A stretch of DNA of 40,097 nucleotides, taken from positions 1 through 40,097 of IMG/VR virus record IMGVR_UViG_3300045918_000038; one strand, 5' to 3'. The stretch comes from a virus. A program made the translations under genes and the position numbers. The notes under the pieces are model-generated. The model did not search any database. It had not been told where the DNA came from and saw only the letters and a program-made list of their open reading frames with translations. Below, piece by piece: positions 2,364-19,298 of this stretch. Position 1 is the stretch's first letter, and each line of letters starts with the position of its first letter.

Positions 2364-4399
2364 GCAGATTCAGCAGTTTTAGCATAAGCAGCCTCAGACG
2401 CAGCCTTGTGAGCCATCTGTGCATGGGCAATACGCTCATTAGAGGCAATATCTTCCGCTTTCAGGTGCAAGTCCTTCTCCTTAAGCATGAGATCCGCAAT
2501 CTTGGCACGTTGTTGGAAGTCGCCTTCCTCGTTGCCATTGGTCAGATTATTACTCAAAGCCGCCACCAGCTTGGCCTGCGCCACTTGTGGGGTAACTTGG
2601 GCTTCTGCTGTCGCCTTAGCTGCTTCAGCCTGTGTTTTCTGCACCTGGGCCTGCTTAAGTGCGCCATCCAACATAATACCCTGCTGCTGCAACTGTTGTG
2701 CCTGTGGATCAGGTTGAGCCGCCTTCTGCAACTGCGCCAACATCTCCTCGCGGTTGGTCAGAGAACTGTTCTTGATGACCGACTGCATCAGGATCGGTGT
2801 CAGAGGGCTATTCGCACCCAGGGTCTGGATCAGGAATGCCAACTGCTTCTGCTCATACTCACGGGCAATGATACCCAAGGTAGCTGTTGGGATGAATTTC
2901 ACATCTATAGAGGGGTAGCGCTGTGGGTCGAACTGCATATAGCGCCATGCAGCCTTGTTGACGAACGGGATCAGGAAATCCTCTTGGAAGTTCACCAGTA
3001 CCCGCTTGTACTTCTTGATCATGGTCGCTGTCGCCATATCAATACCACCCGCATCACGACTCACCTGGGTCGGTGCACCTGCGGAGTCCACGGTAGAGGT
3101 TGCCATCAGCATCATGCGTTCAAACTCTTTGGAAGTCTGCATCGCCTGACCATCATTGGTACCGAACTTGAACGGGAAGATGATCTCGGAGGGTGTGCCG
3201 TTGGTCAGGAACGCCTTACCCGGTTTCACCTCAAACTTCGCACCACGGGGAAGTCGGCTGGCATCCAGTCCCACCATAGGGGCTACGGTCAGTGCCAGTG
3301 CGTCCATGTGACTACGCATCGACCCATCTACCGCCGACTGCATATTGAATGCCTTCTCAGCCGTACCGCGACCCATCAGTCGCCCAGGCACGGTATCCGC
3401 TTGGTAGCTGAGTACCGGGCGATCCTTCATCATGTAGGGTGATTCTTCACACTTGAGCAGCAAAGAGCCGTTACCAATGACTATGATCGCCTCAACCATG
3501 TCCTTGTAGTCCTCAGTGTCAGACTCGTTGAACAGGTCAACCACATCTTCTTTCCCGAGGTACTCACGGGGTACCAGACCATAGTAAGTCAGCAAAAGGA
3601 CCTTGTTGTCCTCAAAATTCTTGGATTGCTGGGTCTCCTCAAGGGACTCATCCTCATAGAAGGACGAAATATCGACGTTACGGTACTTCCCCTCAGCGAT
3701 ACCAGCAGCAACCTTGTGAATACCCACATACTTCTCAATCGCCACCCCCATGCAGTCGTCAACTGACACGCCATTGGGGTCATACAGGAAGTTTTTGGGG
3801 TTAATCGGGTTAATCTTGACCGATGTACGGGTTTTCTCACCCGAACCATAGGCAGATTGGTTCCCACCCATTGGTACCGTCATGGGAATGAACTGTTTCT
3901 CATCCCCAGTCACCACTTCACCGATACCCGTACCGTAAATCTCACCCAGAAGCACAATCTGGTCAATAGATTTACGAATTTTGTCCTGTTTGAAGTCTTC
4001 TTTGAGTTGATTCTTCAACTTTTCGACATCGATCGCACCATTCTGGTCGTTAATATCATCAGAAATGTCAAAGAAGTCACCTTGCCCAAAGATCCCCTCG
4101 ATAATCTCAGCATGACGAGTCTCAATAGCCTGCTGTGTCGCTGGGGAGATGACCCGGCTGCGCTCTGACGAACGGTTTACATCCTCAGCGGCCCAGATTC
4201 CCCTCCAGGTGCGCTCATACTTGAGCCAGTCGTCCATGTAGTTCTGGTCGCGGTACTCTCTCCAGCGGTCACAGTGATCAACAATAAACGAAATTAGCTC
4301 CTTCTCATTCTCCGAAGGCTCCACATACTCTTTAGGGGTGGCATCAGGGGTCAGATCAACAATCTCACCGCTGTTGGAAAAGCCTTCGGTAATAGCCAT
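2360..4399 (-). CDS. Portal protein
   Basis: 679 residues, starting at an ATG preceded by AAGGAA. The length and order (directly after TerL) fit the head-to-tail portal of podoviruses: the dodecameric ring through which DNA enters and leaves the capsid. The N-terminal part (SFIVDHCDRWREYRDQNYMD, then ISPATQQAIETRHAEIIEGI) has the pattern of the long P22/T7-type portal superfamily. The C-terminal 120 residues are Gln/Ala-rich and helical, consistent with the portal barrel or crown. No frameshift is seen. Identification rests on context and the general sequence pattern. Confidence 0.85.
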   Translation of the reverse strand: MAITEGFSNSGEIVDLTPDATPKEYVEPSENEKELISFIVDHCDRWREYRDQNYMDDWLKYERTWRGIWAAEDVNRSSERSRVISPATQQAIETRHAEIIEGIFGQGDFFDISDDINDQNGAIDVEKLKNQLKEDFKQDKIRKSIDQIVLLGEIYGTGIGEVVTGDEKQFIPMTVPMGGNQSAYGSGEKTRTSVKINPINPKNFLYDPNGVSVDDCMGVAIEKYVGIHKVAAGIAEGKYRNVDISSFYEDESLEETQQSKNFEDNKVLLLTYYGLVPREYLGKEDVVDLFNESDTEDYKDMVEAIIVIGNGSLLLKCEESPYMMKDRPVLSYQADTVPGRLMGRGTAEKAFNMQSAVDGSMRSHMDALALTVAPMVGLDASRLPRGAKFEVKPGKAFLTNGTPSEIIFPFKFGTNDGQAMQTSKEFERMMLMATSTVDSAGAPTQVSRDAGGIDMATATMIKKYKRVLVNFQEDFLIPFVNKAAWRYMQFDPQRYPSIDVKFIPTATLGIIAREYEQKQLAFLIQTLGANSPLTPILMQSVIKNSSLTNREEMLAQLQKAAQPDPQAQQLQQQGIMLDGALKQAQVQKTQAEAAKATAEAQVTPQVAQAKLVAALSNNLTNGNEEGDFQQRAKIADLMLKEKDLHLKAEDIASNERIAHAQMAHKAASEAAYAKTAESA

Positions 4400-12312: not shown

Positions 12313-12676
12313 TATGACCTATGGGCAACTGAAGCAAATTGCTCAGATGATGAAATCTTCTATTGCACAACTGCAGCAGAGCGAGAAACCGCATCCATAC
12401 ATAGGTAAATATGTTATTGCCCGTTGCTATTCGGCTGGCGTTCATGCTGGAACTGTGGTTAGCGTAGACGGTGAAACATGCCTACTTGCAGACTCCTGCC
12501 GATTGTGGTCATGGAAAGCCAAAGACGGAGTTGCACTTTCTGGCGTTGCTCAGTCTGGTGTGCAGTCAGGTTGCAAGATTGATGTGGCAAATCCAGAAAT
12601 TTACCTGACTGGAATTTGCGAACTCATCCCATGCAGTGATGCAGCCAAGGAGTCTATCAATGGCTTCAAAAAATAA
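12299..12676 (+). CDS. Conserved phage protein, DUF6948-like
   Basis: 125 residues. The start overlaps the previous gene by 14 bases and has AAGGA seven bases upstream. A short coiled N-terminus (QLKQIAQMMKSSIAQLQQ) is followed by a beta-rich domain YIGKYVIARCYSAGVHAGTV, which resembles the DUF6948 family of phage proteins. Function unknown; these genes usually accompany replication genes. Confidence 0.75.
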   Translation: MNLDDMTYGQLKQIAQMMKSSIAQLQQSEKPHPYIGKYVIARCYSAGVHAGTVVSVDGETCLLADSCRLWSWKAKDGVALSGVAQSGVQSGCKIDVANPEIYLTGICELIPCSDAAKESINGFKK

Positions 12677-12890
12677 AACGTTTACATACAGCGATGGCGA
12701 TGGCTCTGGCTATGGCTATGGCGATGGCTCTGGCTCTGGCGATGGCTCTGGCTCTGGCTATGGCGATGGCTCTGGCTCTGGCGATGGCTCTGGCTATGGC
12801 TCTGGCTCTGGCTCTGGCTATGGCTCTGGCGATGGCTCTGGCTATGGCGATGGCTCTGGCTATGGCTCTGGCTATGGCTCTGGCTCTTAA
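12660..12890 (+). CDS. Low-complexity XG-dipeptide repeat protein
   Basis: 76 residues. After an 11-residue basic/aromatic head (MASKNKTFTYS) the whole protein is 32 consecutive X-Gly dipeptides, where X is Ser (16), Tyr (8) or Asp (8), ending in Ser. The codons are almost invariant (tct, tat or gat followed by ggc), so the DNA is a degenerate hexanucleotide repeat. There are no hydrophobic residues other than Tyr. The composition resembles SYG-type disordered segments that self-associate in eukaryotic proteins, and silk-like repeats; a similar role here is conjecture. It overlaps the upstream gene end by 17 bases. Another frame gives a Met-Ala/Leu-Ala polymer, which I regard as a shadow. Confidence 0.7.
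   Translation: MASKNKTFTYSDGDGSGYGYGDGSGSGDGSGSGYGDGSGSGDGSGYGSGSGSGYGSGDGSGYGDGSGYGSGYGSGS
12693..12884 (+). repeat. Hexanucleotide repeat tract (NNT-GGC)32
   Basis: 32 in-frame units of gatggc, tctggc or tatggc. In-frame gain or loss of units by slippage or recombination would change protein length without frameshift. Confidence 0.95.
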
Positions 12891-15494: not shown

Positions 15495-15941
15495 ATGTCT
15501 CGATCAAAACCACATGGTTTAAAAGGTACTCCTGAATATAACGCTTGGGTAGGAATGCGCCAGCGTTGTAACAACCCTTATGGTCATGATGCCCATTACT
15601 ACAGTGGTATCACGGTATGTCCTGAGTGGGATGATGTCACTCAATTCGTTGATGACATGGGTACTCGACCGTCAGAGAAACATCAGATTGATCGTATTGA
15701 TAACACTAAGGGTTACTCACCTGATAACTGTCATTGGGTTGATAAGTACTCTCAGATGAGAAATACCCGTGCATCAAAACGCTGGTTTGTTTATGGAACT
15801 ATGTATATGAGTCTAGGTCAAGCAGCAAATGAATTCAATACAACACCGACGCGAATAAAGGCATGGTGTGAAGGTAGAAGTGATGGCGGGTATATCTATC
15901 CACCTAGAGAGAACTGCTGGTCCGAGAAGGTCTACAAATGA
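15495..15941 (+). CDS. HNH homing endonuclease 1
   Basis: 148 residues with the pattern ITVCPEWDDVTQFVDDMGTR (39-58), IDRIDNTKGYSPDNCHW (65-81): the HNH variant of phage intron-less homing endonucleases (D66-R-I-D69-N70, N78-C-H80). The C-terminal 45 residues (SLGQAANEFNTTPTRIKAW) form a helix-turn-helix DNA-binding segment. AAGGA precedes the ATG. Its stop overlaps the DNA polymerase start (ATGA, 15938-15941), and its last codons supply the polymerase Shine-Dalgarno. Confidence 0.85.
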   Translation: MSRSKPHGLKGTPEYNAWVGMRQRCNNPYGHDAHYYSGITVCPEWDDVTQFVDDMGTRPSEKHQIDRIDNTKGYSPDNCHWVDKYSQMRNTRASKRWFVYGTMYMSLGQAANEFNTTPTRIKAWCEGRSDGGYIYPPRENCWSEKVYK

Positions 15942-17335
15942 GAGTAGCGTATGACATCGAGACAATGCCCAACTGCTTCACCCTCGCAGCAGAGGACTGT
16001 GATTCTCCTATCAAGTGGGCGTTTGAGATCAGCGCCTTCAGGGATGACTCACGCCCTCTGATTGAGTGGTTGCAGTGGTTGGTAGGTCATAACGCACAGA
16101 TGGTCGGGTTCAATAATGTTGGATTCGACTACCCAGTGCTTCACACCCTTATCCAGATGGGTAAGGCTACACCACAGATACTGTATGACAAGGCCATGAG
16201 CATCATCCATGCACAGGACACGAACCGCTTTGCCTCTATTGTGTACCCCAAGGACCGATATGTAGAGCAGATTGACCTGTTCAAGATCGCACACTTCGAC
16301 AACAAGGCTCGGGCTACCTCACTGAAGGCCTTGGAGTTCGTGATGAAGATGGATGACATTGAGGACTTACCATTCCCAGTGGGCACATCGCTGACCCAAG
16401 AGCAGGTCCCTGTACTCAAGGACTACAACGCACACGATGTGACTGCAACTAAGCTGTTCTATCTCCAGATGCTGGAGCAGATCGAGTTCCGTGCTGCGCT
16501 GACTGCGAAGCATGGTCGTGACTTTATGAACCACTCTGATGTGAAGATCGGTAAAGAGATATTCCAGATGGAGTTGGAGAAGGTCGGTGTCCAGTGCTAC
16601 AAGTACGGACCTGATGGTCGTGAGCCAATGCAGACTAAGCGACCTGTGATCCGACTGGCTGAGTGTATCCCCGACTTCATTCAGTTCACTCATCCCGAGT
16701 TCCAGCGGGTACACGGCTACCTTAAGCAGCAGGTGATCACCGAGACTAAGGGTGTCTTCAATGACTTGACTGCCCATGTGGGTGGGCTTGACTTTGTGTT
16801 CGGTACAGGTGGTATCCATGCCTCGGTAGAGAACCAAGTGTTCGAGGCTAATGAGGACTGGATGATCCTCGATGTGGATGTGACCTCACTGTACCCATCC
16901 ATTGCCATTGAGCAGGGCTACTACCCTGAACACCTGGGCAAGCAGTTCATCAGTGTGTACCGCACCCTACGCACCCAGCGTATCGGCTATGCCAAGGGTA
17001 CTGCTGAGAACGCCATGCTCAAGCTGGCACTGAATGGTGTGTACGGTGCATCGAATGACCAGTTCTCAGTGTTCTTTGACCCCTTGTTCACACTCAAAGT
17101 AACTATCACTGGGCAATTATCTCTGGCTATGTTAGCTGAGAAATTAATTGAATATTCTAAAATAATTCAAACGAATACTGACGGGATTTCTATATATCTT
17201 CATCGTAAGGATGAGGATGTCATCAGGAATATTTGCACACAATGGGAAAAACTGACAAAACTTACCCTTGAATATGTCGAGTATTCTAAAATGTGTATTA
17301 GAGATGTAAATAACTATCTAGCTGTGGGAGTTTAA
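15938..17335 (+). CDS. DNA polymerase family B, N-terminal fragment (exonuclease + palm)
   Basis: 465 residues. 3'-5' exonuclease motifs: YDIETMPN (D6, E8), NNVGFDYP (D64), YNAHD (Y163, D167). Polymerase motif A is DVTSLYPS (D314-S321), motif B KLALNGVYG (K362, N366) and motif C NTDG (catalytic D415; N413 replaces the usual first Asp). It ends NNYLAVGV just before the KxRY-like motif, which starts the next fragment at 17828. From about 17100 to the end the codon use changes to AT-rich (tta, ata, aat, ttt), unlike the GC-richer start. It probably forms a two-chain polymerase with 17828-18250. Confidence 0.92.
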   Translation: MRVAYDIETMPNCFTLAAEDCDSPIKWAFEISAFRDDSRPLIEWLQWLVGHNAQMVGFNNVGFDYPVLHTLIQMGKATPQILYDKAMSIIHAQDTNRFASIVYPKDRYVEQIDLFKIAHFDNKARATSLKALEFVMKMDDIEDLPFPVGTSLTQEQVPVLKDYNAHDVTATKLFYLQMLEQIEFRAALTAKHGRDFMNHSDVKIGKEIFQMELEKVGVQCYKYGPDGREPMQTKRPVIRLAECIPDFIQFTHPEFQRVHGYLKQQVITETKGVFNDLTAHVGGLDFVFGTGGIHASVENQVFEANEDWMILDVDVTSLYPSIAIEQGYYPEHLGKQFISVYRTLRTQRIGYAKGTAENAMLKLALNGVYGASNDQFSVFFDPLFTLKVTITGQLSLAMLAEKLIEYSKIIQTNTDGISIYLHRKDEDVIRNICTQWEKLTKLTLEYVEYSKMCIRDVNNYLAVGV

Positions 17336-17336
17336 T

Positions 17337-17831
17337 ATGATTACTCAGGAAGTATTAAAGGCTCATTTACTTTATGATCCTTTAACTGGAATATTTACAA
17401 GAAAAATATCACTTTGCAATAGGGTCAGTATCGGTGATACCGCTGGAAATAAGAATATGCAGGGGTATATCGCAATACGTATATTGGGAAAACTTTATAA
17501 GGCACACCGATTAGCATGGTTGTACTCCTATGGGGAAATTCCTGATGATATTGACCATATCAATGGAATAAAGTTTGATAACAGAATTTCCAATCTTAGA
17601 AATTGTACTAGGAAACAGAACTCTGAGAACCAGAAATTACGCTCTACAAATGGGTCTGGTCATAGAGGGGTTTATTGGGTTCCACTGGAGGGTAAGTTCA
17701 AAGCACAAGTTGGTCACAATGGATTGAAATACCACTTAGGTACGTTTGCTGATATTAATGATGCGATTCATGCTGTCCGAGAATTTAGAGACTCTAATTA
17801 CACCCATGATAAGACGGAGTATTCGGCATGA
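17337..17831 (+). CDS. HNH homing endonuclease 2, inserted in the polymerase gene
   Basis: 164 residues, AT-rich. HNH_3-type core AHRLAWLYSYGEIPDDIDHI (H57, D73, H74) with NGIKFDNRISNLR completing the site, then a C-terminal AP2-like DNA-binding domain (GHRGVYWVPLEGKFKAQVGH, about 107-126, and YHLGTF). It starts two bases after the polymerase fragment stop (GGGAG seven bases before the ATG), and its TGA overlaps the C-fragment ATG. The ORF fills the whole gap, leaving no obvious room for a group I intron core, so it looks like a free-standing insertion. Confidence 0.88.
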   Translation: MITQEVLKAHLLYDPLTGIFTRKISLCNRVSIGDTAGNKNMQGYIAIRILGKLYKAHRLAWLYSYGEIPDDIDHINGIKFDNRISNLRNCTRKQNSENQKLRSTNGSGHRGVYWVPLEGKFKAQVGHNGLKYHLGTFADINDAIHAVREFRDSNYTHDKTEYSA

Positions 17832-18250
17832 AAATAAAAAGAAAAGGTGCCTACGAGTATGACCTAGAGTACCACCAGAACCACAGTGCCTTGGTCATCC
17901 CCAAGGTAGCAGAGCAGGTGCTGGTGCACGGTAAACCGATCCGTGAGACAGTAGAGCAGTGGCCTGACTTCATGGACTTCATGCTACGGGTCAAGGTACC
18001 ACGCAGCAGCAAGCTGTACTGGGGTGAGACTCAGATACAGAACACCACACGCTACTACGTCACGACTGCGGGTAAGCCTCTCACCAAGGTCATGCCTCCT
18101 CTGGCAAAGAACCCTGAGAAGTGGCGCACGTTCGCTATTGAGAGTGGTTGGGTAGTGCAGGTGTGCAATGACATCAAGCAGGCTACGCAGCCTATTAACT
18201 ATGACTACTATGTGCGAGAGATTGAGAAACTTGTATTGGGGATGAAATGA
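17828..18250 (+). CDS. DNA polymerase family B, C-terminal fragment (thumb)
   Basis: 140 residues. It begins MKIKRKGAYEYDLEYHQNHS: KIKRKGAYEY corresponds to the KKRY/KxRY motif that follows motif C in family B polymerases and contacts the primer end. The rest is the thumb region. GGAG lies seven bases upstream of the ATG, inside the HNH gene, so it is translated as a separate chain. Composition returns to the GC-rich style of the first part within about 25 bases. The two fragments sum to about 605 residues. Confidence 0.85.
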   Translation: MKIKRKGAYEYDLEYHQNHSALVIPKVAEQVLVHGKPIRETVEQWPDFMDFMLRVKVPRSSKLYWGETQIQNTTRYYVTTAGKPLTKVMPPLAKNPEKWRTFAIESGWVVQVCNDIKQATQPINYDYYVREIEKLVLGMK

Positions 18251-18540: not shown

Positions 18541-18817
18541 GCGTGATATTGAGAAAGCGGTGAAAGCCTATGCTGAGTCAAAGGGCTGGCTGACCCGCAA
18601 GTGGACCAGCCCAGGACACTCGTTTGTACCTGACCAGATATTCATTCGACCCAATGGTCAGGTGATCTTTGTCGAGTTCAAGCGTAATGGGGGTAAGTGC
18701 ACACCGGGTCAACTGCGTGAGCATATCAAGCTAACAAACCAAGGGTGCCGGGTCCATGTGATCGACTCGGTAGCTGCGGGTAAAGAGATGGTTGACTGCT
18801 ATGCTAACTCAAACTGA
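18533..18817 (+). CDS. VRR-NUC domain nuclease
   Basis: 94 residues, a minimal VRR-NUC PD-(D/E)XK nuclease. E7 in the first helix, SPGHSFVPDQIFI with D34, VIFVEFKRNGG with E48 and K50, and Q60 (TPGQLREH) form the active site. Stand-alone VRR-NUC proteins of phages cut branched DNA such as Holliday junctions, and normally lie next to SNF2 helicases, as here. Start chosen at ATG 18533, overlapping the MazG-like gene end by 8 bases. Confidence 0.9.
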   Translation: MLERDIEKAVKAYAESKGWLTRKWTSPGHSFVPDQIFIRPNGQVIFVEFKRNGGKCTPGQLREHIKLTNQGCRVHVIDSVAAGKEMVDCYANSN

Positions 18818-19298
18818 ACTGATTGCCATGTTTGACTATGATCCTGCGCCTGGAGAGTTGAGGAGAATCTTTACAAGTAAGGGTTACCCCCCTGGTCGCA
18901 TCATTACTCGAAAGAATGACCACGGGTATCTGGTTACGACAGTCAATCGTAAGACCTATCGAGTCCATCATCTTGTATGGATGTACTTTAATGGTGAACT
19001 ACCTGACTCACTTGATCATGTGAACCGAGTTCGTGATGATAACCGAATAGAGAATCTACGCCCCTGTGCGATCTACCAGAACTCAGGGAACTGTGTAGCG
19101 AGAGTACACAAATACAAAGGCGTGACATTCGATAAGGTTAATCAGAAATGGGTAGCCCAGATTGGCATTCAGTATGAGTGTGTGAAGCTGGGAAGGTTCA
19201 AGACCATTGAGGAGGCTGCATTAGCTTACAACAAGGCTGCACTTGATTACTTCGGTGAGTTTGCTGTATTGAATGAGGTGGATCATGCTGCACCCTAG
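18801..19298 (+). CDS. HNH homing endonuclease 3
   Basis: 165 residues. HNH_3 core with H56/H57 (VHHLVWMYFNGELPDSLDHV), D72-H73 and N75, followed by NRIENLRPC, then an AP2-like domain (YKGVTFDKVNQKWVAQIG). Start at ATG 18801, overlapping the VRR-NUC end by 17 bases. Its 3' end overlaps the helicase start by 14 bases and provides that gene's GAGGTG ribosome site. It separates VRR-NUC from SNF2, which are usually adjacent, so it is an insertion. Confidence 0.85.
   Translation: MLTQTELIAMFDYDPAPGELRRIFTSKGYPPGRIITRKNDHGYLVTTVNRKTYRVHHLVWMYFNGELPDSLDHVNRVRDDNRIENLRPCAIYQNSGNCVARVHKYKGVTFDKVNQKWVAQIGIQYECVKLGRFKTIEEAALAYNKAALDYFGEFAVLNEVDHAAP

Follow-up and report, generated by a model that had tools for sequence, protein, structure and literature searches.

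A family B DNA polymerase gene is divided into two open reading frames (ORFs) by an HNH endonuclease gene in the window, the whole stretch of 40,097 nt of viral DNA analysed here (IMG/VR record IMGVR_UViG_3300045918_000038, positions 1 to 40,097). The same turn of the polymerase is interrupted in 20 further loci and by nuclease genes of three types. Taken together, the sequence evidence makes it very probable that the arrangement is a homing-endonuclease "gene in pieces" at a new recurrent site of the polymerase, with a predicted two-chain enzyme as its product.

Anatomy of the Split Locus

The three ORFs and the features around them are listed in Table 1. The N-fragment matches positions 54–506 of the phrog_1252 DNA polymerase profile (E 2e-152) and the C-fragment matches positions 512–648 (E 9e-29). 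Because these segments are adjacent, the two fragments are consecutive parts of one family. The middle ORF matches homing-endonuclease families, namely HNH_3 (Pfam E 2e-16) and the phrog_99 HNH endonuclease (E 1e-61). An earlier, sequence-only reading of the window had proposed that an HNH gene splits the polymerase here, and the three ORFs at the positions in Table 1, with their PHROG and Pfam matches, bear this out. It had also given each ORF a Shine-Dalgarno sequence of its own and described the three as tightly coupled. This too agrees with the data: predicted anti-Shine-Dalgarno pairing is -5.6 kcal/mol at the N-fragment start, with the HNH and C-fragment values given in Table 1, a 1-nt gap separates the N-fragment stop from the HNH start, and the HNH stop and the C-fragment start overlap as ATGA. 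An intein was rejected, as the N-fragment ends in TAA and the HNH ORF lies in another frame.

Table 1. Features of the split polymerase locus and of its surroundings in the window.
Feature	Position	Strand	Size or evidence
Second HNH-type ORF, intergenic between the SSB and polymerase genes, outside the split	15495–15941	+	phrog_374, E 1e-35
N-fragment of family B DNA polymerase (exonuclease, palm, fingers; motifs A, B and C and KxRY-equivalent DVNNYLAV)	15938–17335	+	465 aa
Low-GC polymerase tract adjoining the insert, read as a putative co-conversion tract	17091–17335	+	codon composition, change-point
Shine-Dalgarno-like GGGAG for the HNH ORF, within the final N-fragment codons	17326–17330	+	-6.8 kcal/mol
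HNH_3/phrog_99 endonuclease ORF occupying the entire gap; candidate homing endonuclease of the free-standing kind	17337–17831	+	164 aa
Shine-Dalgarno-like GGAG for the C-fragment, within the HNH ORF 3' end	17816–17819	+	-6.1 kcal/mol
C-fragment (thumb), beginning MKIKRKGAYEYD; its start ATG overlaps the HNH stop	17828–18250	+	140 aa
Third HNH_3-AP2 ORF, between a nuclease gene and a SNF2 helicase gene	18792–19298	+	Pfam HNH_3 and AP2

Two more HNH genes lie close to the split. Homologues of the upstream one (15495–15941), 63–64% identical, are found at the same place in loci L054, L078, and L106. The downstream one (18792–19298) has a homologue 76% identical in L005, and L100 also has a homologue near the same intergenic place. 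With these two genes and the homologues near the same intergenic places in relatives, the replication module is rich in nuclease genes. Elsewhere in the window, a periodic repeat of 12 and 18 nt (TGGCTATGGCGATGGCTC...) occupies positions 12653–12890, before a DUF2800 gene, and can be read through without a stop in one or more forward frames (ALAMA repeats). A direct repeat of 300 nt, 96% identical, is present at both contig ends (2–301 and 39770–40069). The genome may be complete, with its ends joined from two variants.

Position of the Cut in the Polymerase

A profile of 43 sequences aligned NNYIAVKEDGKVKRKG with KKKYAVIDEEGKITTRG of a KOD-type polymerase, so that NNYIAV lines up with KKKYAV and the turn with DEEG. 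By this alignment the KxRY-equivalent is DVNNYLAV, the final motif of the N-fragment, just ahead of the cut. The sequence-only reading had placed the cut between motif C and KxRY, with KxRY in the C-fragment, and had taken it to separate two active-site elements. Both claims have to be corrected, since the KxRY-equivalent ends the N-fragment and the cut falls after motif C and KxRY alike, at a hairpin turn. Intact relatives read NNYIAV-KxDG-xxKRKGAYEYD through this region; the window reads NNYLAVGV followed by a stop, and then MKIKRKGAYEYD. Compared with the intact relatives, the window is missing just the turn residues, and the codons of the conserved turn have been lost in its split.

Structure prediction gives the same position. 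In an AF2 model of an intact relative (L002; mean pLDDT 90), the cut falls in the turn between strands 459–464 and 469–472, so that the cut site is, on the model, the surface turn of a beta-hairpin at the palm-thumb border. The best Foldseek matches of this model are archaeal family B polymerases (E ~1e-14). When the C-fragment was modeled alone, residues 17–140 were well folded and residues 1–16 were disordered. Loss of the turn codons counts against a working two-chain enzyme, as does a report that a loop-equivalent residue, D714, is essential in RB69 polymerase (PMC3792054).

Occurrence of the Split among Relatives

An uninterrupted gene is present in eight IMG/VR relatives (63–77% identical) and in phage DSL-LC05 (57%), and loci L002–L010 are all intact. 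The N-fragment is 75–77% identical to its nearest intact relatives. The sequence-only reading had suggested that uninterrupted homologues be sought to define the insertion point; they are found in all close relatives and place it at the hairpin turn. The window C-fragment is ~72% identical to relatives, vs. ~80% for the N part, and the relatives are 82–92% identical among themselves. This extra divergence of the C-fragment may reflect either faster change after the split or recombination.

In a wider locus scan, the same turn was found to be split in three further loci. When an ATG immediately preceding the KRKGAYE motif was searched for in two pattern scans, 21 matches were obtained, including L091 again, and each match is a restarted C-fragment. 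After deduplication, 21 unique loci are split (window included) vs. 154 intact, the split count being biased upward because the pattern scans selected for splits. In the scans that did not select splits, 0/80 and 3/80 loci are split, and the split state is therefore a minority of a few per cent. Among the 20 non-redundant split loci besides the window, 10 carry an HNH gene, seven a GIY-YIG gene and one a T5orf172-type gene, and two are without a nuclease. With the window included, the nuclease-bearing split loci number 19 (11 HNH_3, seven GIY-YIG, some with NUMOD3, and one of the T5orf172/MUG113 type). The insert is always at the same turn, whichever nuclease family it belongs to. The split had been treated as a single oddity in the sequence-only reading; with 20 further loci, it is recurrent at one site.

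On a tree of 69 N-parts, built by a quick method that does not distinguish gains from losses, the split and intact states change at least 14 times, and at least 12 of these changes are forced by starred branches. Split and intact sisters are adjacent on the tree in four pairs (L091/L052, L163/L187, L164/L197, and L110/L016). The window HNH is 34–42% identical to the other split-site HNHs, vs. 45–50% to its best phage matches elsewhere. Given these identities, invasion of the window looks independent. No close homologues of the window HNH were found in viral contigs, and no restart pattern was found in bacterial genomes. No nuclease gene accompanies the split at this turn in two loci: L169 (8738–8748), an IMG/VR contig whose ORFs overlap, and Vibrio phage LMAVpH (L183, 2901–2906), which has been cultured. 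Nuclease loss and sequencing error are both possible origins of these two nuclease-free splits.

Cultured phages also carry the split. It was read in sequence, at the same turn, in four additional isolates, namely Klebsiella phages KpVB3 (HNH) and KpTRp1 (GIY-YIG), Edwardsiella phage PVN06 (HNH), and Acinetobacter phage phiAB441 (GIY-YIG), the N-part of the last being itself annotated as two ORFs. By annotation only, the Jedunavirus phages JD001, KpV79, FZ14, BUCT_49532, and others have two polymerase genes with a gene between them. The polymerase is intact in PCCM_KpP_22 and PEi21. Flavobacterium phage FPSV-F12 (L182, 2550–3495), in which a GIY-YIG gene interrupts the polymerase at motif A, was rejected as a case of the same event; its different site and its non-coding flanks indicate a separate event, probably a group I intron.

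Footprints of Homing

Co-conversion footprints are present in two other split/intact pairs. L091, which carries a GIY-YIG gene, is 96% identical to intact L052 until 41 nt before the insert and 54% identical in that tract; downstream, identity is 61% over the 107 nt after the C-fragment ATG and then 98%. PVN06, with an HNH gene, is 97% identical to intact PEi21 until 579 nt before the insert, then 56%, and then 99% from 12 nt after the C-fragment ATG. Sharply bounded tracts such as these are clearly what co-conversion during homing would leave.

A similar trace is visible in the composition of the window. GC3 is 0.295 in the 236 nt from 17091 to 17326 and 0.329 in the HNH gene, vs. 0.661 in the polymerase upstream and 0.659 downstream. 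The composition change-point lies at 17084–17115, with a log-likelihood ratio of 14.5 vs. at most 7.2 in 500 codon shuffles. The right edge of the shift is at ~17846, 18 nt into the C-fragment, and the left tract measures ~240 nt; a long left and a short right arm match the shape seen in PVN06. The low-GC tract fits co-conversion during homing, as judged from its composition. No donor of the tract and no intact, near-identical sister of the window were found, and amino-acid divergence of the tract is no higher than in other pairs, so that the case for co-conversion in the window rests on GC3.

Expression, Selection, and Alternative Explanations

In 19/19 nuclease-bearing loci, the C-fragment begins within the final codons of the nuclease gene. 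The translation start of the thumb is thus supplied by the nuclease gene, an arrangement that could tie retention of the nuclease to polymerase function. Anti-Shine-Dalgarno pairing at the C-fragment ATG, taken over the 19 nuclease-bearing loci, two nuclease-free loci, and four cultured phages, has a median of -5.8 kcal/mol vs. -1.5 kcal/mol at 3734 internal Met codons (p 3e-12). Purifying selection on both fragments is seen in two stably split clades, with dN/dS of 0.03–0.06 for the N-fragment and 0.09–0.10 for the C-fragment (dS is near saturation in most pairs).

These data bear first on splicing. The HNH gene might lie within a compact self-splicing (group I or II) intron, in which case the polymerase would be one chain after splicing. 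HNH and GIY-YIG genes are often intron-borne, the HEG-interrupted genes of ICP1, including the tape-measure gene, have been shown to be spliced (PMC10448857), and 43B of Aeromonas phage 25 carries a group I intron (annotation; Rfam 64 bits). The insert in the window, however, is filled by its ORF, as the sequence-only reading had observed (a 495-nt ORF, with 492 nt from the N-fragment stop to the C-fragment start). No Rfam intron match was obtained in the window at E ≤ 10 or in five other split loci at E ≤ 1; the same search recovers the phage 25 intron at 64 bits, with incomplete sensitivity in that it missed the probable intron of FPSV-F12. A spliced second exon would need neither an ATG nor a ribosome site, yet both are seen in the split loci, and the stop-start layout recurs with unrelated nucleases. 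The two-chain reading is preferred on these grounds, namely the missing intron match, the compact and coupled ORFs, the restart codon with its ribosome site, and a layout shared by 19 loci, and an intron is considered unlikely.

A second alternative is that the insertion inactivated the polymerase, that a host or other polymerase is used instead, and that the fragments are decaying. Loss of the conserved turn would agree with decay, as would the 72% identity of the window C-fragment vs. 82–92% among intact relatives for the same part. Against this, the family-invariant residues are all kept in both window fragments, both polymerase ORFs retain their ribosome sites, purifying selection acts on both fragments in other split clades, and the split is present in cultured phages; inactivation is accordingly very improbable. 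An assembly chimera, or a variant confined to a minority of the population, can hardly be credited as the source of the split, for although the window is a metagenomic contig and no second copy of its exact split was found, frames, ribosome sites, and the ATGA overlap are intact at both junctions and 20 other loci as well as isolate genomes share the architecture.

Proposed Origin and Significance

In the two-chain reading, a free-standing HNH gene would have entered the turn codons after the KxRY-equivalent by homing, through break repair from a nuclease-bearing phage, and, to go by composition, would have brought along ~240 nt of upstream donor polymerase sequence. One mRNA would then serve three coupled cistrons (exonuclease-palm-fingers, HNH, and thumb), the putative ribosome site and start codon of the thumb being located within the 3'-terminal part of the HNH gene. 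Most likely, the two chains of the polymerase come together again without a covalent link. The N-terminal arm of the thumb, KIKRKGAYEYD, which is predicted to be disordered alone, would re-form the second hairpin strand against NNYLAV, and the severed hairpin would in this way be restored by strand complementation. The window HNH presumably cleaves DNA, and we infer that the transcript is not spliced and that the two chains are active together.

A broader proposal, on which our judgment is evenly balanced, is that the palm-thumb surface turn is a general split-tolerant homing site: unrelated nucleases would colonize it, the polymerase would work as two chains, and loss of the nuclease would cost thumb expression, a form of addiction. 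Until now, splitting of replicative enzymes by homing endonucleases was known in a small number of T4-type phages. In the present polymerase family, which is widespread among phages, a single site has been split repeatedly, and in phages that can be grown, so that the function of a two-chain processive polymerase becomes testable. Also open to test are the means by which a nuclease gene links its persistence to an essential gene and the question of which polymerase turns tolerate breakage, the latter being useful for the engineering of split polymerases. The split also explains the recurrent annotation of two polymerase genes in Jedunavirus-type phages.

Comparison with Known Systems

In gene 43 of Aeromonas phages 25 and 44RR, a family B phage polymerase is likewise made in two chains. 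A GIY-YIG gene lies between the halves in phage 25, whereas 44RR is without a nuclease gene. These are T4-type polymerases, and in phage 25 the group I intron is inside 43B. The first chain, 43A, has 498 codons in both phages, which places their cut elsewhere than the palm-thumb hairpin turn of the window; we take it to lie in the fingers by T4/RB69 numbering. The gp43A and gp43B proteins of phage 25 have been reported to co-purify and to be active (PMC2988022). The nrdA/mobE locus of Aeh1 resembles the window in having a free-standing HNH gene in an essential gene, with two functional chains there (PMC2988022), but the gene encodes ribonucleotide reductase and stands as an isolated instance, not a recurrent site. 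In the OM43 phages MEP401 and MEP402, too, the polymerase spans two ORFs, which a small ORF separates (PMC10580990); unlike that of the window, this polymerase belongs to family A, and the inserted ORF is of unknown family. The split PolB of Methanothermobacter might be a further parallel. Jedunavirus records annotated "DNA polymerase (x2)" (JD001, KpV79, FZ14, and BUCT_49532) have the same polymerase family and an HNH, T5orf172, or hypothetical gene between the two parts; the split is at the same turn in the KpVB3 and KpTRp1 sequences and is known from annotation only in the other records. No report of a split phage polymerase or a recurrent homing site at this turn was found in the literature covered, most subscription journals being outside it. 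Overall, HEG-split genes are already known; what is new is that a single turn has been interrupted repeatedly, by nucleases of three types.
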